Assembly (NCBI RefSeq): GCF_901827155.1
Contig: NZ_LR594659.1
Coordinates: 186,001-250,000 of the forward strand
Direction of reading: 5' to 3'
Source of the DNA: Variovorax sp. PBL-H6
Lineage (GTDB): Bacteria > Pseudomonadota > Gammaproteobacteria > Burkholderiales > Burkholderiaceae_C
Length of the DNA stretch: 64,000 nt
Shown here in pieces: positions 882-18,113 of this stretch. The notes beneath the pieces were generated by a model. It was not told the origin of the DNA. It saw nothing but the letters and a program-made list of their open reading frames with translations, and did not search any database. Position 1 is the first letter of the stretch; the number at the start of each line of letters is the position of its first letter. Both the position numbers and the translations under genes were made by a program.

Positions 882-1727
882 ATGAAAGCACCCCCTCGAC
901 TACAGACGCTGATCGACGAAGGATTGATCGACAGCGTGGTTCGCCAGCTCATGAGCGGCAAGGAAGCAATGGTCTACGTGGTGCGCTGCGGCGACCAGAC
1001 GCGCTGCGCCAAGATCTACAAGGAAGCGACCCAGCGCAGTTTCCGCCAGGCCGTCGACTACACCGAAAACCGCAAGGTCAAGAACACGCGTCTGCAGCGC
1101 GCCATGGCCAAGGGCACCAAGTTCGGCCGGCAAGCGACAGAGGCAGCCTGGCAAAGCGCCGAGGTCGATGCGCTCTACAGGCTGGCCGCGGCGGGCGTGC
1201 GCGTGCCGGAGCCCTACAACTTTGCCGACGGCGTGCTGCTGATGGAGTTGGTCACCGACGAGCACGGGGATGCAGCACCGCGCCTCAACGATGTCGTGTT
1301 CACGCCGGAGGACGCGCGGCGGCATCACGCGACGCTGCTGGTCGAGGTGATTCGCATGCTGTGCGCGGGCGTGGTGCATGGCGATCTTTCCGAGTTCAAC
1401 GTGCTGCTCGCCGCTGATGGCCCCGTCATCATCGACTTGCCGCAGGCCGTCGATGCCGCCGGCAACAACCACGCACGGCGGATGCTGTTGCGCGATGTGG
1501 GGAATCTTGCCGGCTTCTTCGGGCAGTTCGCGCCCGAGTTGCTGTCCACCCGCTACGGAGAGGAGATTTGGAACCTCTACGAGCGTGGCGAGCTTCACAC
1601 GGGCTCGGCGCTCACGGGCAGCTTCGCGCGTCCGAGCGGGCCGGTGGACCTGGGCGGGGTGATGCGCGAGGTGGAAGACGCGCGCGCCGAAGAGGCGGCG
1701 CGGATTGTTCGCATGGCCGTGCGCTGA
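882..1727 (+). CDS. RIO-family serine protein kinase
   Basis: A 281-aa atypical kinase of the RIO type. Visible elements are the ATP-anchoring lysine in AKIYKE (about K44), the catalytic loop HGDLSEFNVL with H166, D168 and N173, and the metal-binding aspartate in IIDLPQAVD (D185). RIO kinases lack the classical activation loop, as here. Archaeal and eukaryotic members act in ribosome maturation; bacterial substrates are poorly known. No membrane segment or signal peptide is present, so it is cytoplasmic. The last roughly 40 residues are charged and helical. A hairpin follows the stop codon. Confidence 0.88.
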   Translation: MKAPPRLQTLIDEGLIDSVVRQLMSGKEAMVYVVRCGDQTRCAKIYKEATQRSFRQAVDYTENRKVKNTRLQRAMAKGTKFGRQATEAAWQSAEVDALYRLAAAGVRVPEPYNFADGVLLMELVTDEHGDAAPRLNDVVFTPEDARRHHATLLVEVIRMLCAGVVHGDLSEFNVLLAADGPVIIDLPQAVDAAGNNHARRMLLRDVGNLAGFFGQFAPELLSTRYGEEIWNLYERGELHTGSALTGSFARPSGPVDLGGVMREVEDARAEEAARIVRMAVR

Positions 1728-1797: not shown

Positions 1798-2169
1798 TTA
1801 CCTGGACTGCGTGGCCGGTTGCTTCGGCATGTTGTCCTTTCCCATCGAGTCCGTGCTCGTGGGATTGCGCCCGGCGCTGCCGCCCTGACCCTGCTTGGAA
1901 CTTGTGCGGGCGTTGCCACGCCTTGCGTCGCCGCTCGCATCGTTGTTGTCCATCAAGGGGTTCTGCTTGCGTGCTGCCTCCGGAGTGGCCCCGCTGGTGC
2001 CAACTGCCGGGTGCGTGGGAGGAGTGGTCGGACTCGGAGTCGCCGTGGCATCGCTGCCACCTGTCGCGGGGTGGGTGGGGGGTGCTCCCGTGGGTCCCGT
2101 CTGGGCCGTGGCGCAGACAGATGCGAGCACCAGGCAAGTCGCGCCGAGCGCGGTGCTGAACGTGGACAT
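1798..2169 (-). CDS. secreted low-complexity Thr/Pro/Gly-rich protein
   Basis: A 123-aa protein with an N-terminal signal peptide (MSTFSTALGATCLVLASVCATAQ, cleavage probably after the ATA region near residue 22). The mature part is almost entirely Thr, Pro, Gly, Ala, Ser and Asn, with two related PPTHPA..G segments near residues 29-56, and looks intrinsically disordered. It is predicted to be exported to the periplasm or beyond. I recognise no enzyme motif. It sits alone between the RIO kinase (convergent) and the patatin operon. Confidence 0.6.
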   Translation of the reverse strand: MSTFSTALGATCLVLASVCATAQTGPTGAPPTHPATGGSDATATPSPTTPPTHPAVGTSGATPEAARKQNPLMDNNDASGDARRGNARTSSKQGQGGSAGRNPTSTDSMGKDNMPKQPATQSR

Positions 2170-2324
2170 ACTGCGTCTCCTTGAAGTCGAACCTGAACTT
2201 CATTTGGCGCCTGCGACGCGTTCGTGCTGTGCGAGGTGGGCCCCGGTTGCTGTCGGAGGGACCCTACGCTGGCCAACGCCAGCATAGGCGCGACATCGCG
2301 CAACGCCATGGCCCTCCAGTCCCT

Positions 2325-4439
2325 TCAGATGCGCGGAACGATTCGCCACACGGGGCGAGGGCGGGGTGCCTTTTCGAGCAACGCGAGCTGCGACTCGCGG
2401 TCGACCGCGGGGCCGATGGTGCCCAGCGCATCGAATGTGTGCACGGCCATCTGCCGCTGCACTGCGTCGTATGGAACATCGCCAGTCGCGAGTAGTTCGC
2501 GCCACGCGGGATCGTGAACCGATGGGTGCCGGCCCAGCATCTCGGAAAGCGCAATGAACATCCTCATTCGAATCTGCCGATGATTCTTCCAGCCCTCGGA
2601 CAACGGTTGGCCGGCCGCGAACGAGAACCGCTCGATCAACCGTTTCGCAGCGCATGCGCCGGCCGCGCTCAAAGCCTCGATGTGTCCGCTGGGCATGTCG
2701 AGGTTCAGGCCGCCTTCCCTGGGCTTATGCGCAATTTGCACCACTCGATCGCGGTATCCAGGCATCGGTAGCTGGATCTCGTCGTGCCAGGTGCGCATGG
2801 TCTCGACCATCCTCCACAGAAGATTGAACAGGCCCAGCGACGAGGACTCGTCGATCTCCTTCCAGTACTGTTGCAAGCCGGCCGCGTTGTTGTCGGGGAG
2901 ATAGACGCGGCCATTGTCGAGCGCACACGCGTCCACGTCGGCTCGGATGGGGTGATCGGGATGTTCATCCTTCAGGTTGACGGCAAAGGTCGGATGCCCC
3001 GGGAGCGGTGCGTCGAAGAAGTGGAGCGGCATGTTGCTTGCGATGCCGCCGTCGGAGAACCACACCTTCTTTGGAAACGCGCTCTCGGCCTTTCCGCTGT
3101 AGTCGAATGCATACATGGGCACGGCGGACAGCAGTACCGGAAAGCTCAGGCTCATTCGCACGAGCAGCACAACCGGCAGATGCCGGTTACAGGGCAGACG
3201 GCGCAGCGGCCTGCCGTCTCGCGTGCGGGCACCGCCATTCGCCGGAATGGGCGGGCTGGCCTCGAGCAGCCAATTCATGACGGAAGGTGGGAACAGGCGC
3301 TTCCATTCCTCGGGATCGAAGAAATACGCACCGGCACCTGGCCGCAACGGCAGGGCATAGGGCATCTGCCGGGTGACTGCCGTCGTCATGACCTCGAGGT
3401 TGATCTTTCTTTCGGACAACGGCGTGTCTTCTGCTTCGGAAGGATCGTCGCCGAGCACTCGATCGCCGCTCCAGAGGTCGCCCAGCGTCAACGGCCGTGC
3501 GGCGGTGTCGAGTCCTGCGACTTCGTTGAAATAGCGGGTGAGCCAGACAGTGAGTCCTGCAACGGGTGTGTCGCCTTGCGTACTGAGGCCCGAACAGATT
3601 CCCCAAAGGTTGTCGTGTAGCCCCGTCAGCAGTGACGCGACGAACCTCCACCCGCAGAGGCCGAACGCAAGGCCCAGCGCCAGCGGCAGGGCGAGCCCCC
3701 ATGAGACGGTCGCCAGCAGATCCGCCGGCCACGCCGTCACCCAGGGTTGCGAATCGATCCGTGACATTGCCGCAAAGAGCGCTGCCATGCCGCCTAGCCA
3801 CCACAGCCCGATGCGCGCCTTGAGCGCAGGCTTGGTTGCGCGGCATGCATGCCGCCAAATGAATAACCAGCCCGCGGCCAGCCAGGCCGCCGAAGCGACG
3901 CCGGCAATGATCGATGCCTCGCCCCAGGGAACGGGGCCGATCGAGCGGATGAGCGCGACCAGCACAGCGAGCATCAGGAGCGCGACGGCTGCGACGATGC
4001 CCCAGTAGCGCAGGAGCAGCGTACCGAGTCCGTTGACGACTATTGCCACCTTGCTTGGCTGGTTCAACGATGCGACCAGCACATCGAAGTGACGTGCCAA
4101 GGCACGGCTTGGCTGGAACAGATGCCGAAGCACCGACCCTTCGCCTTTGCCCACCTCGCGGCCGAGTTCGTCGGGAAGCTTGTCGAGCTTCGCGAAACCA
4201 GCGGCATCACCCGTGAGGCGCCGGAATTCGGCAGCGGCGCATCCGGCCGCAGCAATGGCACCCGCGGACGTGCCGCCGACGTTCTTGAAACGGTACTTGG
4301 CCGCGAGCCCCGAAATCAGCTTGGGGTAGACCACGCCGCTGGTGATACCGCCCTTCATGATCAGGTCGCAGTAGGCGATGGCTGAAGCGGCAGATGAACT
4401 TTCCGGGACCGAGGACGGCGACGCTTCCTTCGATGACAT
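2325..4439 (-). CDS. patatin-like phospholipase with inserted membrane domain
   Basis: A 704-aa patatin-type lipid acyl hydrolase. The nucleophile elbow is GGTSAG (S58) after the glycine-rich MKGGITSG segment (about 28-35); the dyad aspartate is in SDGG (D463), followed by NMPLHFFD. Between Ser and Asp lies an insertion of about 150 residues with roughly four hydrophobic stretches (about 132-164, 175-196, 210-225, 240-270), so the enzyme is probably membrane-anchored. The start at 4439 (MSSKEA) is preferred to an in-frame upstream ATG at 4517, which would overlap the preceding gene. It is the last gene of a three-gene operon, 20 bases after the lysozyme-like gene. Substrate unknown; a membrane phospholipid is the natural guess. 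Confidence 0.85.
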   Translation of the reverse strand: MSSKEASPSSVPESSSAASAIAYCDLIMKGGITSGVVYPKLISGLAAKYRFKNVGGTSAGAIAAAGCAAAEFRRLTGDAAGFAKLDKLPDELGREVGKGEGSVLRHLFQPSRALARHFDVLVASLNQPSKVAIVVNGLGTLLLRYWGIVAAVALLMLAVLVALIRSIGPVPWGEASIIAGVASAAWLAAGWLFIWRHACRATKPALKARIGLWWLGGMAALFAAMSRIDSQPWVTAWPADLLATVSWGLALPLALGLAFGLCGWRFVASLLTGLHDNLWGICSGLSTQGDTPVAGLTVWLTRYFNEVAGLDTAARPLTLGDLWSGDRVLGDDPSEAEDTPLSERKINLEVMTTAVTRQMPYALPLRPGAGAYFFDPEEWKRLFPPSVMNWLLEASPPIPANGGARTRDGRPLRRLPCNRHLPVVLLVRMSLSFPVLLSAVPMYAFDYSGKAESAFPKKVWFSDGGIASNMPLHFFDAPLPGHPTFAVNLKDEHPDHPIRADVDACALDNGRVYLPDNNAAGLQQYWKEIDESSSLGLFNLLWRMVETMRTWHDEIQLPMPGYRDRVVQIAHKPREGGLNLDMPSGHIEALSAAGACAAKRLIERFSFAAGQPLSEGWKNHRQIRMRMFIALSEMLGRHPSVHDPAWRELLATGDVPYDAVQRQMAVHTFDALGTIGPAVDRESQLALLEKAPRPRPVWRIVPRI

Positions 4440-4459
4440 GGTGGTGCTTTCGAACACGC

Positions 4460-5260
4460 TCACAGATGTTCCACTGCTCGCACAGTCAGCGCTTTCAACA
4501 GCACGCCCGCACCACACTGTTTGGAAACGCTGCTGGCATCGAAAACGTGGTCGGCGACGAAACGGCCCTTCACGTAAAGGTTGGAGAAGCTCCAGAGATA
4601 GGGAGAGGGAATGTGCCGTGGGCGATAGCCAAAGCCATTGTTCGACTCCCAGCGGTACAGCATCCTGGCAATGCTCCAGTCGGCCTGGCCAACAAATCCT
4701 TTGAGCTCCAGTGCGTCCCTGGCACTGGCTTCCCAGGTAAAGGGCGGCGAGCCCGCCACAGGCCTGCCCTTCGGTACCTGCTTCGTCCGCGCTGAAAGCG
4801 GATCACCGTTGTGCAGGTGTGTGCCGAAGTCGCAGCCCGATTCCAGCGAATGGATGATCGCAACGAAGTACCACGGGATGCCCAGCGGGCCAGCCAACGC
4901 CTTGTAGCGTGCCGCTGACACCTGCATCTTGTCGACTCGCTTGTTCACCTCCATCACATGCTGAGGACTCGTGATGACGCAAGCATCGAAGTACTGGGTG
5001 TACTCGGATGCAAGCTGTGCGAACTTCGTCGCGTTCATGGGAGGCGCCACGGGCCCAAGCTGGGTTGATGCGGCGGGCTTGAGCGCTTCTTCGTCGGATT
5101 CCGTTGCCGAAGGAGCGGAGTCGTCGAATACGAGAACGACCGTCGAGTTGCCATCTTGCTGCCGAATGACCGATGCAGTGACGCCGGGCTGTTGCGAATC
5201 CTCGAGCACCTGCTGGAGTTGGGCGGGCGAAATGTCCCGGATGATGTTTTGGAACGACAT
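4460..5260 (-). CDS. lysozyme-like / peptidoglycan-binding-type protein
   Basis: A 266-aa protein whose C-terminal 150 residues match a lysozyme-like family that I know from proteins annotated as peptidoglycan-binding. Typical segments are IPWYFVAIIHSLESGCDFG with an in-place glutamate, THLHNGDPLSARTKQVPKG, FTWEASARDALELKG and YLWSFSNLYVKGRFVADH. The N-terminal 100 residues are hydrophilic and of unknown function. No signal peptide is obvious, so export would need another route. It starts 9 bases after the lipoprotein stop and ends 20 bases before the patatin start, which argues for one transcript. Muramidase activity is inferred from the fold, not shown. Confidence 0.7.
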   Translation of the reverse strand: MSFQNIIRDISPAQLQQVLEDSQQPGVTASVIRQQDGNSTVVLVFDDSAPSATESDEEALKPAASTQLGPVAPPMNATKFAQLASEYTQYFDACVITSPQHVMEVNKRVDKMQVSAARYKALAGPLGIPWYFVAIIHSLESGCDFGTHLHNGDPLSARTKQVPKGRPVAGSPPFTWEASARDALELKGFVGQADWSIARMLYRWESNNGFGYRPRHIPSPYLWSFSNLYVKGRFVADHVFDASSVSKQCGAGVLLKALTVRAVEHL

Positions 5261-5269
5261 GGTCTCCTC

Positions 5270-6199
5270 CTAGACAGGGAGTTTCAGGTCCGAGACTGCC
5301 TTGGCTCTGGCTGTCGCGAAGTCAGGCAAATTCAGAAATGCGGCAATGGTGACTTTCGGAACATTCTTGGCGAGATAGTCGATGAGCACCTTCTGGTTCT
5401 TCGGGTTCAACTGGCCGCCTGGCCGAATGAAATTGCGCAGCCTTGTCGCAGCATCATCGGGGGGCACGATGCTGTTTTGTGCCGTGACCGGGATCGCGTT
5501 CGTCACGGTGGGCGGCCGTCCCTCATCGGGTCGTCCCTCGGTGGCCCCGGGCTGCGCTCGCTTGACCGACAGATTGACCTCTGCTTCGATGCTGGCGGGC
5601 ACGCAGAGGGTCGCGTAGCGCCTGATCGCAGTCAGCGCGGCCGGGCGGTTCGTGTAGCCGGTTCCGAGTTCCTGGCGGTAGGTCTGCTGCATGGTCTTGA
5701 CGAGCGTTCGCACCGAGGAGGGGTCTAGCTCGTAGAGCAGGTTGCTGCTGAGGTTGTCGACCGTCGACGAGGCGAGCCCAAAGGCGATCGCGACAATCGC
5801 GACTTCCTTGGCCGCCGCCTGCGCAGCCGCCATGACGCCTGCCGTCGCGCCGCCCAGCAGGCCGACCTGCGCCACTGTCGTGCGGCGGTCTCGATTCAGG
5901 CGAAACAGCGCATGCATGTAGGCTTCGCACTTCGAGTCGGAGAAGTCCATGCCGGCATGGATGATGGCGTCCCAGTTGCCGATCGCAACTGGCGCCAAAG
6001 GCTCACCAGCCGCTTCGCGCAGCGCGTCGATTGCCGCCGTCTGGTTGGTCACGTAGGTCGTGACCTCGCTGGATTTCATCTCTGCGCCCGGCCCGACTTC
6101 CAGCTGTGAATAGTTGCGGTAGGAAGCACAGGATTGCAGCAAGGACAAGGCGAAGCCAATCGCACAGACCCAGACGGCGTGACGGAGTGCAAGGACCAT
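5270..6199 (-). CDS. outer-envelope lipoprotein, unknown function
   Basis: A 309-aa lipoprotein. The N-terminus has a hydrophobic signal and a lipobox LLQSC (C24), so it should be lipidated and held in the envelope. The start at 6199 is favoured over an upstream ATG at 6220 because GAGGT lies five bases before it. A Gly/Ala-rich hydrophobic stretch near residues 115-150 could be a membrane helix or amphipathic segment. The C-terminal 60 residues end in LPDFATARAKAV. I do not recognise the family. It heads the operon with the lysozyme-like and patatin genes. Confidence 0.7.
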   Translation of the reverse strand: MVLALRHAVWVCAIGFALSLLQSCASYRNYSQLEVGPGAEMKSSEVTTYVTNQTAAIDALREAAGEPLAPVAIGNWDAIIHAGMDFSDSKCEAYMHALFRLNRDRRTTVAQVGLLGGATAGVMAAAQAAAKEVAIVAIAFGLASSTVDNLSSNLLYELDPSSVRTLVKTMQQTYRQELGTGYTNRPAALTAIRRYATLCVPASIEAEVNLSVKRAQPGATEGRPDEGRPPTVTNAIPVTAQNSIVPPDDAATRLRNFIRPGGQLNPKNQKVLIDYLAKNVPKVTIAAFLNLPDFATARAKAVSDLKLPV

Positions 6200-6450: not shown

Positions 6451-6627
6451 ATGCTGAAGTGGGCCATCATCTTCGCCATCGTTTCAGTCGTCGCAGGTGT
6501 CTTCGGCTTTACCGGGCTCAGCGCCGGTGCGGCAAAGATCGCGAAGATCCTGTTCTTCATCTTCCTGATCGTCGCCATCGTGTTCGTGGCCTTGACGGTC
6601 CTGGGTATCGGCGCCATCGCATCGTAA
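6451..6627 (+). CDS. DUF1328 (YtjA-type) small membrane protein
   Basis: A 58-aa protein of two hydrophobic helices (residues about 2-24 and 31-55) around a short AAKIAKI linker, the pattern of the DUF1328/YtjA family. It starts MLKWAIIF and ends LGIGAIAS, typical of the family, and has AAGGAAAA a few bases before the ATG. It is expected in the inner membrane. The function of the family is unknown. It is divergent from the lipoprotein operon. Confidence 0.85.
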   Translation: MLKWAIIFAIVSVVAGVFGFTGLSAGAAKIAKILFFIFLIVAIVFVALTVLGIGAIAS

Positions 6628-11162: not shown

Positions 11163-14100
11163 ATGAATCACATTTACCGCCTGATATTCAATCGCGCCAC
11201 TGGCGCTCCTCAAGCGGTATCGGAGGTTGGCCGGAAATCCGGGGCGGGGCAAGGCGGCCAGGAATTGAATGTGAGTACCTTTGTTGCACGTCTCTCGCCG
11301 CTGGGACTTGCGATCCGCCTGGGCATTGTCGGCATCGTCGGCGGCTTGGCCGCCCCTTCCGCGATGGCCACCTGCGCCACCTCCGGTTCCACAGTGACCT
11401 GTACCGGCGTGCCGACCCTGCCGCTGTTTCTTAACAACTTCAGCAGCGCTACAAACGGCCTCACGGTCAACGTCAACAGCGGGGCGCAGATGAACGCGAC
11501 CCTCGGTGGCCACGTGATGGACTTGACCGGGGTGAATATCTCACTCAACAACTCAGGCACTCTTGATCCGGCGTTGCTGGGCCTGGTTTCAGTGTTGAGC
11601 GGCGGCGCCTTCATCGGCACTGGCGCCACCAGCACGGTAAGCGTGCTCAACAATGCCAGCGGGATCATGCGCGGCACCGGCATGCTCCTTGGGCTCAACC
11701 TGACCAGCATCGATGGCCTCGCCATCGGCGTGAATAACGCTGCGGCCGGTACCACCAGAATCACCAACAACGGCACCATTACCTCGACCGGCTTGTCGGT
11801 GGGCGGCATTACCCTGGCCGATACTCCGGTGGTCGGCGTCTACGGCGGCTCGCAGGTCAACATGACCAACAGCAGCACCGGTGTCATCAACGGCCGGATC
11901 GCGTTCGAGACGTCGGCCGCGGGCAATACATTTACCAACGCCGGCGCAATTACCGGCGGCGTCTCGATGGGCGCAAGCAGCACCAACACGTTCACGGCGA
12001 TTACCGGTTCTACGGTGCAGGTCGGTGACGGTGTTCAGGTCAGCGTCGGTCTCGGTGGACTGATCGGCGTCAACCTGACCTTCGCCCCGACCGGCACCGT
12101 CGACGGCGGCGCAGGCGGCACCAACAGCCTGATCCTGCAAAACCCGATCGGCGTCGGAGGCGGCACCACCGGAGTCGGCACAGCGTCGAGCGCCACCTAC
12201 GTCAACTTCAACAACCTGACCATCAACAGCGGTACCTGGACCTTGCAGGGACCATTGGTCAGTGGCGCGACCACGCTCAATGGCGGCGTCGCCCAGTTCA
12301 ACAACAACGCCACGTTTGGCAGCGGTGTGATCACCTCCAACGGCGGGATTTTGCAGGCGAGCAACGCCGGGTTGAACGTCAGCAATTTGATCTCGTTGGG
12401 CGCAGGCGGTGTCACGGTGCAAGGCACCAACGCCACCACGCTGAGCGGGGTGATTTCCGGCAGCGGTGGCCTGACCAAGGTCGGTTCCGGTCAGTTGAAC
12501 CTCAGCGCGGCCAACACCTATCTGGGCAACACCACGCTCAATGGCGGCACGGTACAGGTCAGCAACAATCGGGCCTTCAGTACCGGCACCCTCAACTTCA
12601 CCGGCGCGACCAGTCTGTCGGCGCCGGGAACTATTAACCTGAACAATGCGGTCAGCCTCGGCGGCACAATGACTGCTACCGGCACCGGCGCACTGACCCT
12701 CGGCGGATTGATCTCCGGCAGCAGTGGTATCACCAAAACCGGCAGTGGCAGCCTGACCCTTAGCGGCAATAACGCCTACACCGGCACCACCGCGCTGAAC
12801 GCCGGTTCGCTGGTAGTCGGCTCCAACACCTCGCTGGGCACGGGCAGCGTAAACGCGGCGAACGGCACTACGCTGGATGCCAACACCGCAGCAACCCTGG
12901 CCAACAACATCAACCTCGGCGGCACCCTTAGCGTGGGAGGCACCAATGCACTGACCCTTGGCGGCGTGGTCGCCGGTATCGGTGGGCTAGTCAAGAACGG
13001 CGCCGCCGACCTGGCCTTGGGCGGCGCCAATACCTACCTTGGCACAACCAGCCTCAACAGCGGCAGGCTCGTCCTTGCCTCCAACACGGCCCTGGGCAAT
13101 GGCGCCTTGAATGCGGCCGCCAACACCACGCTCGACAGCAACACCGCTGTCAGCCTGAACAACAGCGTGAATCTTGCCGGTGCCTTGAGCATCGGCGGTT
13201 CGGCCGGCATGACTTTGGCTGGCACGATCAACGGTGCCGGCAGCCTGGTAAAGAATGGCGCCGCCAACCTGGGCTTCACAGGCAACAACAATTTCCTCGG
13301 CGGCGTCACGCTCAACGCCGGCACACTGACCGTCGGCGGCAACTCTGCCCTGGGCCTCGGCAACCTGACCGTCGGCGGCGCAGCGACGCTGGACAGCAGC
13401 GCGGCGGCAAGCGCGGCAAACAACGTCGTCTTGAACGCCGGCCTGACCGTCGGCGGAACCCAGGGCCTGACCCTCGGCGGCGTCATCACCGGTACCGGCG
13501 CGTTGACCAAGAACGGCGCGGCAGCACTGACCCTCAACGGCAACAACAGCTTTCAGGGTGGCACCACCCTCAACGCCGGCACGCTCACCCTGGGCAATGC
13601 AGGATCGCTTGGAACCGGCGGACTCGTCGTGGGCGGCGCCGCGACCCTGGACAACAGCGCTGCGCTTGCGGTGGCCAATGCCCTGACGCTCAACGCGGGC
13701 CTGACAGTGGCGGGCAACAACAATCTCACCCTGAGCGGCGTGCTCGGCGGCGCCGGGGCGTTGAACAAGAACGGCCTGGCTGATCTGACCCTAAGCGGCA
13801 ACAACACATTCACCGGCGCATTGAACGTTGTCTCGGGCAGCGTCACCACCCTCAGTGCGGGCGCGTTGGGCAACACCTCGGGTGCGAACATCGGTTCGGG
13901 TGCCAGCCTCAACCTGGGCAGCAATGCCAGCCTGGCGGCGCTGTCCGGCAGCGGCGATGTGCAGATCGGGGCGGGCAACACTTTGTCGGTGGGCGGCGTC
14001 AGCACCGACAGCCTCTTCGACGGCAGCCTGAGCGGCAGCGGCGGACTGACCAAGGTCGGCAGCGGCTCGCTCAGCTTGACGGGGATCAACGGCCTCACCG

Positions 14101-17100
14101 GCGACACGGCGGTCAACGGCGGCACACTCAATCTCAACGGGTCGCTGGCCAGCGCCAATGTCGGCGTCGGCAGCGGCGCGACCCTTACCGGCACGGGCTC
14201 GCTGCTCGGCGCGGTGAACGTCGCCAACGGCGGCCACCTGGCCCTGAATTCGGGCAACACGCTGTCGATGGGCTCGCTGGTCATGGGCAGCGGCTCCAAC
14301 CTCGACGCCAACCTGGGCCCGGCTTCGCTCACGTCCCTTCTCAATGTCGGCGGCAACGTGACGCTCAATGGCACGCTCAACGTGACCGACGCGGGCGGCT
14401 TCGGCGTGGGTGTGTATCGGCTGATCAACTACACCGGTGGCCTGACGAACCAGGGTCTTGTCCTGGGCAGCGTTCCGATCGGCTTCGGCACGGGGGACCT
14501 CGCACTGCAGACCGCCGTGGGCAACCAGGTCAACCTGCTGGTGTCGGCGCCCAACTTGAATATCCGCTTCTGGGACGGCAGCCAGACCATCGCCAACGGT
14601 AGCGTCGAAGGTGGCGCAGGCACCTGGAGTGCGGGCGGCACCAACTGGACTTCTTCCAACGGCCTGGTCAACCAGCCCTGGGCCAGCGACTTCGCGGTCT
14701 TCCAGGGCACGGCAGGCACCGTGACGGTGAACGGAACGCAGACCTTCAACGGCATGCAGTTCGCCAGCGACGGCTACAACCTAGTCAGCGGGAGCGCAGG
14801 CCAACTAACGGCGGTGAACGGCGGCAGCGGCAACACGGCAGTGCGCGTCGATCCGGGCTTCACCGGCACCATCGGCGTGAACATCGACGGCGCCGGCACG
14901 CTGGCCAAGCTCGACAGCGGCACGCTGGTGCTCAACGGGGCCAACAGCTACACCGGCGGCACCTTGCTCAACGGCGGCACCTTGGTCGTGGGCAGCAACA
15001 CGGCGCTGGGCACGAGCCAAGTGACGACAGCCAACGGCACCAGGTTGGACAGCAACACGCCGGTGAGCCTCGCCAATGCCTTCGATCTGGCAGGCACGCT
15101 GACCGTCGCCGGCAGCAACAGCTTGGCGCTCGCAGGCCCGATCGACGGCGTCGGCGGCATTATCAAAAACGGCGCCGCGTCTTTGACCCTGAGCGGCAAC
15201 AACAGCTACCTCGGCAACACCGTGCTCAATGCCGGCGGCCTGGTGCTAGGCGCCAATACGGCGCTGGGTGCGGGCACACTCAACGCGGCTGGCGGCACCA
15301 CGTTGGACGCTAGCAGCATCGTGGCGCTGAACAACGCCGTGAATTTGGGCGGCGCGATCGGCATCGGCGGGACTGCCGACATGAGCTTGAACGGGCCGGT
15401 CAACGGCGCCGGCAGCCTGACCAAGAACGGCGGCGCCAAGCTGACGCTCGCAGCAGCCAACGGCTTCCTCGGCGGCACCACCCTCAATGCGGGACAGCTG
15501 GTGGTCGGCAACAACGGCGCGCTGGGCCTGGGCAACCTCATCGTCAGCGGCGCCTCTACGCTGGACAGCAGCACGGCCGTTGCCTTGGCCAATGCAGTGA
15601 CGCTCAACGCCGGCCTTGCCGTAGGCGGCAGCAACGACATGACGCTCGGCGGCGTCATCGGCGGCGCCGGCAGCCTGACCAAGAACGGCGCCGCGAACCT
15701 GACGCTCACCGGCGTCAACACCTACCAGGGCGGCACCGTGCTGAATGCCGGTACCCTGACCCTGCCCAACGCCGCCGCGCTGAGCACGGGCGCTGTCACG
15801 GTGAACGGCGGATCGACACTGACCCACGCTGTGCCGCTCACCCTGGCCAACAACTTCAACGTGAACGCCGCCTTGACGCTGGCCGGCATTAGTGACCTGA
15901 GCCTGACCGGCGTGCTGGCCGGCGCCGGCACGGTGAACAAGGACGGTCCGGCCGACCTTGCGCTCTCGGGCAACAACAGCTTCAGCGGCGTCTTCAACGT
16001 GCGGGGCGGGAGTCTGTCCATCAGCGGCAGTGCGGCGCTGGGCAACCATGCCGGCATCAATCTGGCGACGGGCACCAGCCTGAACCTGGGCGGCTCGGTC
16101 AACCTGCAGTCGCTGTCCGGCTCGGGCATTACCACCGTCGGCGCTGGCAGCATGCTGAGCATCAGCGGCAACGACCAGACCTACACGGGCAGCATCGTCG
16201 GCGCTGGCGGACTGATCAAGCGCGGCAGCGGGACGCAAGTGCTCTCTGGCGTCAACAGCTACAGCGGCGGCACCTTTCTGGAAGGCGGCACGCTGGCCGT
16301 GGGGAGTAACAGCGCCCTGGGCACCGGCGAGTTGTCGATGGACGACAACACCACGCTGGCCTTCGTCGCCGATGGATTGAGGCTGTCCAACCCGATCCGC
16401 TTCACCGGCGTGGTCGACCCAATCGTCGACACCGGCGCGAATACCGCGACGCTGTCAGGTGGCATCGGCGGCCCTTCTGCCCTCACGAAGTTAGGCACCG
16501 GCACTTTGGTCCTCGCGGCAGCCAACAACAACTACACGGGCGCCACCCTGGTCAGCCAAGGCACCCTCCGAGCCGGTGTGGCCAACGCCTTCAGCGCTCC
16601 CTCGGCCCACACGATCGCGGCGGGCGCGACGCTCGACCTTGCCGGCCACAGCCAGGCGATTGCTGCCCTTGACAACGCGGGCACCGTCAACCTGTTGTCT
16701 GCGGGGCCCGGCACGGTCCTCACCGTCTCCGGCCCTTACGTAGGCAACAACGGCGTACTGAAAATGGGCACGGCATTGGTCGGCAGCAACAGCCTGAGCG
16801 ACCAGCTTGTGCTGAGCGGACCGAGCGCAGTGGCCAGCGGTCGCACCACGCTGCAGATCACCAACCTCGGTGGCCTTGGCGCACAGACCACCGGCAACGG
16901 CATCGAGGTCGTCTCCGCGCGCAACGGCGCCACCACCACCGCTACGGCATTCACGCTCGACGGCGACCACGTTGACGCCGGTGCGTTTCAGTACCGACTG
17001 TTCGTCGCCGATGCCAATGGGCAAGCGGGCAGCTGGTTCCTCAGCACGCAGGCGCCCCCTGCCGCGACCACCCCCGGTGCGACCACCCCGGCCATCCCTG

Positions 17101-18113
17101 TATTACCGGCAACACCGATGTACCGCGCTGAAGTGCCGCTCTATGCGGCGCTGCCCAGCGTGCTGCGCCAGGGCGACCTGGCAATGCTTGGAGGCCTGCA
17201 CCGCCGCGGGGGCGACGAGAGTGGCATGGCTGCCGCCAAAGCCGGCAGCGCCGATGCGTCGGACAACGGCTGGGGGGGCGCAAACCGGCGTGCCTGGGGC
17301 CGCGTGCTCGGCGGCACCACCACCATCAGCCAGGGCGGCGTGACGCAGGCCGAAAGCCGCACCAGCATGGGCGGCTTCCAGGCCGGCGTGGACCTGTTCG
17401 CCAACCGCCTGTGGAATGCTGGCCTGTATGCGGGGCACCTGCGCGCCGACGCCGATGTAAGAGGCGCCTACGGCCCCGGCGGATTCGTCGGCTATGCCGG
17501 TACTTTGCGCACCGACAACACCTACGTGGGCGGCTACGCCGCATACGCCAATACAGAAGGCTTCCATGCAGACTTCGTGCTGCAGTACGGATACCACGAC
17601 GTGACCGCCGGCAGCTTCGGACGGAGCACGCTCTCGGGCGCCACCAGCCTGATGGCCTCCACCCAGGTAGGGCAGCGCTTTGCGCTCGGCAACGGATGGG
17701 GCATCGAGCCGCAGGCCCAGCTGATCTATCACCGCATGAGCCTGGACAATACCGGCATCAGCGGTGCGAGCGTGATGCAGGACACCGACAACGCAGTCAT
17801 CGGTCGCATCGGGGCGCGCGTCGCGGGCGATCTGTCGACTTCGATGGGCCGCTTGAAGCCTTACGCTGGCGTCAATCTATGGCATGGCTTTTCGGGCAAC
17901 GACTCGACCACCTTTGGCGGCCCGGCGGGTGCGACATCGATCGAAAGCGCCATCGGCTACATGTCAACCGAACTCACGGTCGGCTTCACGCTCGGGCTCA
18001 CGCCGAGCGTATCGGTCTACGGCCAGATCGGCAGGCTGTTTCATACCGGCAGCGGCGATGCTCGGGTCAGGTCGTCGGCGCAGGGCACGCTTGGCGTGAA
18101 CGTGGCGTTCTGA
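11163..18113 (+). CDS. giant type V autotransporter with PATR passenger repeats
   Basis: A 2316-aa outer-membrane autotransporter. Residues 1-25 (MNHIYRLIFN to SEVG) form the extended signal-peptide region, followed by a hydrophobic signal with cleavage after SAMA (about 69). The passenger is Gly/Asn/Thr/Leu-rich and carries 14 passenger-associated strand repeats of the type KNGAANLTLTGxNTYxGGTxLNAGTL, building a beta-helix. From about residue 2035 a 12-strand barrel runs to the terminal NVAF, ending in the required Phe. No protease motif or RGD is evident, so adhesion or aggregation is a likely role. Start lacks a ribosome site; an unusual AT-rich leader precedes it. Confidence 0.92.
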   Translation: MNHIYRLIFNRATGAPQAVSEVGRKSGAGQGGQELNVSTFVARLSPLGLAIRLGIVGIVGGLAAPSAMATCATSGSTVTCTGVPTLPLFLNNFSSATNGLTVNVNSGAQMNATLGGHVMDLTGVNISLNNSGTLDPALLGLVSVLSGGAFIGTGATSTVSVLNNASGIMRGTGMLLGLNLTSIDGLAIGVNNAAAGTTRITNNGTITSTGLSVGGITLADTPVVGVYGGSQVNMTNSSTGVINGRIAFETSAAGNTFTNAGAITGGVSMGASSTNTFTAITGSTVQVGDGVQVSVGLGGLIGVNLTFAPTGTVDGGAGGTNSLILQNPIGVGGGTTGVGTASSATYVNFNNLTINSGTWTLQGPLVSGATTLNGGVAQFNNNATFGSGVITSNGGILQASNAGLNVSNLISLGAGGVTVQGTNATTLSGVISGSGGLTKVGSGQLNLSAANTYLGNTTLNGGTVQVSNNRAFSTGTLNFTGATSLSAPGTINLNNAVSLGGTMTATGTGALTLGGLISGSSGITKTGSGSLTLSGNNAYTGTTALNAGSLVVGSNTSLGTGSVNAANGTTLDANTAATLANNINLGGTLSVGGTNALTLGGVVAGIGGLVKNGAADLALGGANTYLGTTSLNSGRLVLASNTALGNGALNAAANTTLDSNTAVSLNNSVNLAGALSIGGSAGMTLAGTINGAGSLVKNGAANLGFTGNNNFLGGVTLNAGTLTVGGNSALGLGNLTVGGAATLDSSAAASAANNVVLNAGLTVGGTQGLTLGGVITGTGALTKNGAAALTLNGNNSFQGGTTLNAGTLTLGNAGSLGTGGLVVGGAATLDNSAALAVANALTLNAGLTVAGNNNLTLSGVLGGAGALNKNGLADLTLSGNNTFTGALNVVSGSVTTLSAGALGNTSGANIGSGASLNLGSNASLAALSGSGDVQIGAGNTLSVGGVSTDSLFDGSLSGSGGLTKVGSGSLSLTGINGLTGDTAVNGGTLNLNGSLASANVGVGSGATLTGTGSLLGAVNVANGGHLALNSGNTLSMGSLVMGSGSNLDANLGPASLTSLLNVGGNVTLNGTLNVTDAGGFGVGVYRLINYTGGLTNQGLVLGSVPIGFGTGDLALQTAVGNQVNLLVSAPNLNIRFWDGSQTIANGSVEGGAGTWSAGGTNWTSSNGLVNQPWASDFAVFQGTAGTVTVNGTQTFNGMQFASDGYNLVSGSAGQLTAVNGGSGNTAVRVDPGFTGTIGVNIDGAGTLAKLDSGTLVLNGANSYTGGTLLNGGTLVVGSNTALGTSQVTTANGTRLDSNTPVSLANAFDLAGTLTVAGSNSLALAGPIDGVGGIIKNGAASLTLSGNNSYLGNTVLNAGGLVLGANTALGAGTLNAAGGTTLDASSIVALNNAVNLGGAIGIGGTADMSLNGPVNGAGSLTKNGGAKLTLAAANGFLGGTTLNAGQLVVGNNGALGLGNLIVSGASTLDSSTAVALANAVTLNAGLAVGGSNDMTLGGVIGGAGSLTKNGAANLTLTGVNTYQGGTVLNAGTLTLPNAAALSTGAVTVNGGSTLTHAVPLTLANNFNVNAALTLAGISDLSLTGVLAGAGTVNKDGPADLALSGNNSFSGVFNVRGGSLSISGSAALGNHAGINLATGTSLNLGGSVNLQSLSGSGITTVGAGSMLSISGNDQTYTGSIVGAGGLIKRGSGTQVLSGVNSYSGGTFLEGGTLAVGSNSALGTGELSMDDNTTLAFVADGLRLSNPIRFTGVVDPIVDTGANTATLSGGIGGPSALTKLGTGTLVLAAANNNYTGATLVSQGTLRAGVANAFSAPSAHTIAAGATLDLAGHSQAIAALDNAGTVNLLSAGPGTVLTVSGPYVGNNGVLKMGTALVGSNSLSDQLVLSGPSAVASGRTTLQITNLGGLGAQTTGNGIEVVSARNGATTTATAFTLDGDHVDAGAFQYRLFVADANGQAGSWFLSTQAPPAATTPGATTPAIPVLPATPMYRAEVPLYAALPSVLRQGDLAMLGGLHRRGGDESGMAAAKAGSADASDNGWGGANRRAWGRVLGGTTTISQGGVTQAESRTSMGGFQAGVDLFANRLWNAGLYAGHLRADADVRGAYGPGGFVGYAGTLRTDNTYVGGYAAYANTEGFHADFVLQYGYHDVTAGSFGRSTLSGATSLMASTQVGQRFALGNGWGIEPQAQLIYHRMSLDNTGISGASVMQDTDNAVIGRIGARVAGDLSTSMGRLKPYAGVNLWHGFSGNDSTTFGGPAGATSIESAIGYMSTELTVGFTLGLTPSVSVYGQIGRLFHTGSGDARVRSSAQGTLGVNVAF
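12765..14100 (+). repeat. autotransporter repeat block, copy A
   Basis: Six consecutive PATR units (units 2-7 of 14) that line up one-for-one with units 8-13 further downstream. Shared idiosyncrasies show the register: third unit FLGGVTLNAG then ALGLGNL, fourth unit FQGG, fifth unit FTGALNVVSGS with SLNLGSNASLAALSGSG. Length about 1336 bases. Confidence 0.7.
14939..16265 (+). repeat. autotransporter repeat block, copy B
   Basis: The second six-unit block, about 1327 bases and 2.17 kb downstream of copy A. It has FLGGTTLNAG with ALGLGNL in the third unit, YQGG in the fourth, FSGVFNVRGGS and SLNLGGSVNLQSLSGSG in the fifth. The divergence is large enough that the duplication is old. About 840 bases of unique passenger, including a WSAGGTNW segment, separate the blocks. 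Confidence 0.7.

Follow-up and report, generated by a model that had tools for sequence, protein, structure and literature searches.

A conserved lipoprotein-lysozyme gene pair with an exchangeable third gene in Variovorax sp. PBL-H6, and its possible role in envelope lysis

RESULTS

A lipoprotein and a lysozyme-like protein form a conserved pair

We analysed a 64,000-nucleotide stretch of the genome of Variovorax sp. PBL-H6 (contig NZ_LR594659.1, positions 186,001 to 250,000; "the window" below), which holds a three-gene operon encoding a lipoprotein, a lysozyme-like protein (hereafter "lysozyme"), and a patatin-like phospholipase (hereafter "patatin") (Table 1). We found that the lipoprotein and the lysozyme constitute a real conserved module and that the third gene is exchangeable. 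Our favoured reading, to which we give somewhat less than an even chance, is that the operon forms a regulated, accessory module for lysing the envelope in the manner of a phage lysis cassette.

An initial annotation of the operon had described three tightly spaced genes, and the reading frames, the common minus strand, and the gaps of 9 bases (lipoprotein/lysozyme) and 20 bases (lysozyme/patatin) were verified. The lysozyme stop codon shares bases with an in-frame GTG at position 4463 (GTGA), a possible start of the patatin gene that would couple its translation to that of the lysozyme gene. Only the patatin has a Pfam match above the cut-off among the three proteins, and NCBIfam returned a single match, far under its cut-off.

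Table 1. Coordinates of the operon genes and of the features around them (positions in the window)
Feature	Position	Strand	Remarks
RIO-kinase gene	882-1727	+	Flank of inserted segment
Inserted segment	1743..6367	.	Holds the operon and the 123-amino-acid (aa) open reading frame, between the RIO-kinase and DUF1328 genes
123-aa open reading frame	1798-2169	-	Pro/Thr-rich, signal-like start (by eye); no Pfam match over cut-off
Patatin-like phospholipase	2325..4439	-	704 aa from ATG 4439; third operon gene
Lysozyme-like protein	4460..5260	-	266 aa, without signal peptide
Lipoprotein	5270..6199	-	309 aa from ATG 6199; 316 aa from alternative ATG 6220
DUF1328 gene	6451-6627	+	Flank of inserted segment

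Relatives of the lipoprotein are rare, occurring in 2 of 150 and 3 of 399 family genomes and in 4 of 61 genus genomes, and lysozyme relatives were found in 2 of the 150 family genomes (own genome included in each count). The closest lipoprotein relatives belong to Variovorax sp. YR216 (88% identity), genome G699 of the same family (54%), and Rugamonas sp. CCM 8940 (48%), and each has a full-length lysozyme directly downstream of it, at 86%, 53%, and 54% identity, respectively. The pair therefore recurs, own genome included, in four genomes, with a spacing of 9-10 bases, which exceeds what chance would give. Between our genome and YR216, the ratio of nonsynonymous to synonymous substitution rates (dN/dS) is 0.11 for the lipoprotein and 0.10 for the lysozyme. 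In Rugamonas (L115:2649-7929), the pair adjoins phage baseplate genes (Baseplate_J, Phage_base_V) and a repressor of CI type (HTH_3, Peptidase_S24), which puts it at the margin of a prophage or tailocin.

What follows the pair is variable. DNA similarity to YR216 stops 8 bases beyond the lysozyme stop codon, and the third gene there is patatin-like, belongs to a different subfamily (below the Pfam cut-off, at 20.2 bits), and has an interrupted frame; tblastn of the operon patatin against it gave no match. This piece of the gene shows six hydrophobic peaks; after the gene comes a TIR-like stretch that matches weakly, with 17 bits, short of the cut-off. The third gene in Rugamonas encodes a 595-aa protein without a family match, whose hydrophobic start is its one hydrophobic stretch; a motif in it, DHFLQDSFAPGH, is reminiscent of zinc-dependent phospholipase C, but sequence searches of Pfam, NCBIfam, plasmids, and the PDB lend this assignment no support. 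In G699, no third gene follows the pair. Conversely, a tblastn search of 16 patatin loci (249,616 bases; two with identical sequence) found no relative of the lipoprotein or of the lysozyme. The conserved trio proposed in the initial annotation is thus not borne out: no patatin locus holds the other two genes, and the third place differs or is empty in the three other genomes with the pair. Independent scatter of the homologues, named beforehand as the outcome that would speak against a common system, applies to the patatin, whereas the lipoprotein and the lysozyme stay together.

The lysozyme is related to phage lysins, and the lipoprotein carries a clear lipobox

The lysozyme consists of a small N-terminal alpha/beta domain (residues ~1-47), a low-confidence linker (50-73), and a mainly helical domain (77-260), in which Glu140, a candidate catalytic residue for a lysozyme fold of the GH23/lytic transglycosylase-like superfamily, is invariant (19/19). 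A hydrophobic N-terminal stretch is absent, in agreement with the earlier statement that the protein has no obvious signal peptide. Relatives were found in 53 IMG/VR loci (34-55% identity) and in one phage record (38% identity), and a BFVD search with the lysozyme gave a match at rank 1 with E 1.3e-8; the protein is kin to phage lysins. A whole-protein Foldseek search against the PDB gave no match at E 0.001. An NlpC/P60 protein of Skermanella appeared, by eye and in a small alignment, to share the N-terminal domain of the lysozyme, and we do not claim this kinship, as the profile E value was 9.

The lipoprotein has a clear lipobox, LLQSC; the lipobox Cys and two further Cys residues are invariant in all 12 aligned family members. 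It also contains an alanine-rich hydrophobic stretch and has no Pfam match over the cut-off. No viral copy of the lipoprotein was confirmed in two viral scans, in the phage records, or in the 53 viral lysozyme loci.

The lipoprotein family is paired with several kinds of wall-degrading enzymes

To describe the family more widely, we read 17 lipoprotein loci: our own, YR216, Rugamonas, G699, Skermanella, three Rhizobium plasmids, and genomes G527, G551, G071, G267, G918, G964, G1129, G834, and G1134. A wall-degrading enzyme lies directly downstream on the same strand at 11 of them, another hydrolase adjoins the lipoprotein at 3, and the remaining 3 have none. The wall enzyme is of the operon kind (P0002-type lysozyme) at 4 of the 11 loci, an NlpC/P60 protein with SLT in Skermanella, a protein with CHAP and/or Phage_lysozyme2 in R. 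ruizarguesonis, R. leguminosarum, and G918 (some of these domain matches are below the cut-off), and a Hydrolase_2 protein in G964 and G1129. The downstream protein of Rhizobium sp. 32-5/1 has no Pfam match, yet it shares 29-35% identity with three other wall-enzyme neighbours over alignments of 328-352 residues. Several of these enzymes share a common N-terminal part and differ in their C-terminal wall enzymes. Among the P0002-type, Skermanella, and Rhizobium-type proteins, blastp found no mutual matches; some of the kinds may be distant kin within the lysozyme superfamily.

The three other hydrolases are related metalloprotease-like proteins in G527 (downstream) and G071 (upstream, with a 4-base overlap) and a DUF900 alpha/beta hydrolase in G267, and no hydrolase adjoins the lipoprotein in G551, G834, and G1134. 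In G527, the metalloprotease-like gene is followed by a caspase match, below the cut-off. In a genome of the genus other than ours, a caspase match below the cut-off (Pfam, NCBIfam) stands downstream of a lipoprotein and a metalloprotease-like gene (L106:4964-7441). In a phylum sample, the lipoprotein matched 7 of 398 genomes, own included, and among the five of these that were fetched, a wall enzyme is present in three and absent in two; a scan of genome contigs gave two loci. Two matches were left out of the counts, G510 (E 8.8e-4; no lipoprotein gene seen in the gene list of the fetched stretch) and G962 (E 3.7e-4; not fetched wide), and plasmid matches H35-H37 and H40 fell outside the locus reading.

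These neighbourhoods bear on whether the operon could be an antibacterial effector-immunity system, with the lysozyme delivered into other cells, the lipoprotein as periplasmic immunity protein, and the patatin as a second effector. The type VI muramidase and phospholipase effector families Tge and Tle, which have immunity proteins, attack the same two layers, wall and phospholipid. The lipoprotein changes faster than the lysozyme relative to Rugamonas (dN/dS 0.51 and 0.27, with dS near saturation), a difference that would be in keeping with an immunity function. However, one lipoprotein family, a constant part, stands beside enzymes that have no detectable mutual similarity, whereas an immunity protein would be expected to match a single effector, and no delivery-type domain was found by Pfam among seven proteins of the locus. 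Our genome (estimated 100% complete) also has no VipB/TssC match, in a search in which E. coli alone matched among 14 control genomes. We consider this explanation unlikely.

The patatin has the Ser/Asp dyad motifs and a possibly membrane-embedded insertion

The patatin matches Pfam Patatin (PF01734) with 48.3 bits (cut-off 27.7), and both residues of its proposed dyad are present, Ser58 in GTSAG and Asp463 in DGG; both motifs are retained in a 48% identical relative (L038). The initial annotation placed about four membrane helices between the two residues. Three to four hydrophobic stretches are indeed there: hydropathy peaks strongly at 146-164, 176-194, and 241-259 and less strongly at 131-149, in overlap with the first of these, and a further peak lies at 422-440. 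The number of helices is approximate, as it comes from hydropathy. By this hydropathy profile, the insertion may be membrane-embedded and would anchor the patatin in the inner membrane.

Patatin relatives occur in 12 of 150 family genomes (own included; one of the 11 others is weak), in 3 of 61 genus genomes (own included), and in 20 plasmid records, some annotated "RpoH suppressor"; 3 of the 20 plasmid matches (H1, H4, H6) were inspected as loci, and the matches in G033 and G522 had short flanks only. No relative was found in phage records or in a scan of genome contigs, and viral contigs yielded one sequence in two records, without the lipoprotein-lysozyme pair. This viral relative (41%; L174:4959-8076) has a Mu-like Com gene upstream of it. 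Patatin-like phospholipases with a hydrophobic insertion are of the same family as the operon patatin and elsewhere stand without lysozyme or lipoprotein. A neighbour matches DyP-type peroxidase at 5 of the 16 patatin loci (L039, L041, L042, L043, L044), two of the five below the cut-off; the same relatives are also near very large proteins, and the L045 relative has a long N-terminal extension. All these relatives, that of L045 included, possibly represent another patatin system.

Given this distribution, the patatin could be a chance neighbour, the functional unit being the lipoprotein-lysozyme pair alone. Its relatives stand without the pair at 16 of 16 loci, and the pair stands alone in G699. 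On the other hand, the short gap before the patatin gene and the possible GTGA overlap suggest co-translation, the third place in YR216 is again patatin-like although of another subfamily, and elsewhere lysozyme relatives also have lipases near them, a Tle1-like one in the case of Rhizobium jaguaris and, in Paroceanicella, a patatin read in the divergent direction. We regard a chance association as somewhat doubtful.

The operon lies in an inserted segment

We compared six same-genus loci around the RIO-kinase gene, of which three matched both flanks and three only the RIO gene. In the three relatives with both, 3, 190, and 855 bases separate the stretches of DNA that match the two flanks (RIO-kinase and DUF1328), and the trio is missing there, which places the operon in an inserted segment. 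GC content within 2001-6000 is 0.65 and 0.62, lower than in most of the window.

The proposal of the initial annotation that the operon serves envelope attack or envelope remodelling fares unevenly: attack is still plausible, whereas the rarity of the genes and their place in an inserted segment make ordinary remodelling (wall turnover and phospholipid recycling) less probable. Remodelling would fit the composition of the operon only, and the wall enzyme, a relative of phage proteins, carries no export signal. We give this explanation hardly any probability.

Elsewhere in the window (11163-18113, plus strand), a 2316-aa protein with an ESPR signal, 14 PATR repeats, and an autochaperone domain is a large type V secreted protein.

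The operon resembles lysis cassettes, and its relatives lie near conflict-type genes

For the lysozyme, 8 of 12 plasmid records were inspected as 14-17 kilobase stretches (H28-H30 and H32 were left out). Genes for caspase, trypsin, CHAT, S8, patatin, or Tle1-like lipase accompany the lysozyme in six of the eight, once as a fusion with it; of the remaining two, one adjoins phage tail genes, and one has neither conflict-type nor phage tail genes. On a Rhizobium jaguaris plasmid (L056:6179-10217), three genes in a row encode a protein with the operon lysozyme domain, a protein that by eye has hydrophobic stretches, and a phospholipase of the Tle1-like kind (226 bits), a second wall-plus-lipid combination.

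Kaur et al. 2020 describe a conflict system, System 3, with trypsin and NucA endonuclease, mostly in alphaproteobacteria, and EAD1 effectors that include lysozyme; the word "lipoprotein" occurs in that paper once, in the reference list only (PMC7159879). A link to this system appears through a Sinorhizobium lysozyme relative fused to Trypsin_2 and Endonuclease_NS domains and through G1129, where a subtilisin gene with a below-cut-off Trypsin_2 match lies 231 bases before the lipoprotein pair on the same strand. By contrast, a Pfam scan of seven proteins from the operon locus gave neither a trypsin nor a NucA match. The lysozyme has no EAD-type Pfam match at E 1, and we take EAD-type models to be included in Pfam.

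Phage lysis cassettes offer a close parallel, together with the type 10 secretion system (T10SS), a holin-endolysin-spanin cluster that occurs outside phages and works through lysis (PMC10847048). Here too, one unit joins a lipoprotein and a probable membrane protein to a wall enzyme that lacks a signal peptide, and the enzyme has the viral relatives given above. Unlike in those systems, the membrane protein of the operon is a phospholipase and the lipoprotein is large and the constant part. The operon could serve T10SS-like release, in which the wall enzyme and the lipoprotein let another protein leave the cell, and the Rugamonas third protein, with its sole hydrophobic stretch at the very start, could be exported cargo. 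However, the third protein of our operon resembles a membrane protein rather than soluble cargo. A holin was not seen either: the two intergenic gaps leave no room for one, and no holin-like open reading frame of at least 80 aa was noticed beside the operon. Nor is there an i-spanin/o-spanin pair, as the operon has a single lipoprotein and no i-spanin-like open reading frame; o-spanins are much shorter than 309 aa. We therefore judge such release to be very unlikely.

DISCUSSION

Starting from the observed gene order, pairing, swapping, phage kinship of the lysozyme, patatin motifs, and insertion, we suggest how an envelope-lysis module of this kind might act. Its core would be an envelope-exported lipoprotein and a phage-lysin-kind lysozyme made without signal peptide, and its exchangeable third part would be, here, a patatin phospholipase that is probably anchored in the inner membrane. 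The lysozyme would wait in the cytoplasm until the module is expressed or triggered. The patatin would then attack inner-membrane phospholipids, in place of a holin, so that the lysozyme could reach the peptidoglycan, and the lipoprotein might help the wall enzyme to act at or cross the outer layers, or might restrain the enzyme until then. As an outcome, the producing cell would die or lyse, perhaps in response to phage or other attack. We favour self-directed lysis on several grounds: the lysozyme is of phage type and has no export signal, the lipase is probably anchored in the membrane, the operon sits in an insertion, and relatives occur close to genes of conflict type.

Several results weigh against this reading. 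The lipoprotein was near the lysozyme domain in 0 of 63 other loci (53 viral, 9 plasmid or phage, 1 genome), with a profile that recovered 17 of 17 known lipoprotein loci as a control; thus, the lysozyme does not depend on the lipoprotein elsewhere. Because none of the 16 patatin loci has the pair and the G699 pair has no third gene, a holin-like role cannot be general. The lipoprotein loci with another hydrolase or with none, the faster change of the lipoprotein relative to Rugamonas, and the lack of any family match for the Rugamonas third protein point the same way. PADLOC (2023 set) contains no family that matches any of the three operon proteins at E 1, none of the seven locus proteins is sensor-like or protease-like in Pfam, and the AlphaFold2 model of the lipoprotein (three sequences) was unusable, with a mean predicted local distance difference test score (pLDDT) of 45. 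Self-lysis, the membrane and holin-like roles of the patatin, the role of the lipoprotein, and the trigger are what we infer.

In a broader form, which we consider doubtful, the operon would be one instance of a widespread, unnamed proteobacterial lysis system with a constant lipoprotein, an interchangeable wall enzyme, and varied lipid or membrane attackers, in which a phospholipase serves as holin and the whole carries out the killing step of an immune or conflict response. The initial annotation knew of no described system of such composition, and none was found in the open-access literature, by titles and abstract starts; what stands of its interpretation is the association of lipoprotein and lysozyme, and not the conserved trio. 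Altogether, a lipoprotein family without a Pfam match over the cut-off is tied to several kinds of wall enzymes (lysozyme-type, NlpC/P60, CHAP, Hydrolase_2) in Alpha- and Betaproteobacteria. The pair offers a simple genetic handle on a possible bacterial use of domesticated phage lysins, and a dedicated envelope-lysis effector module becomes testable with two or three genes.

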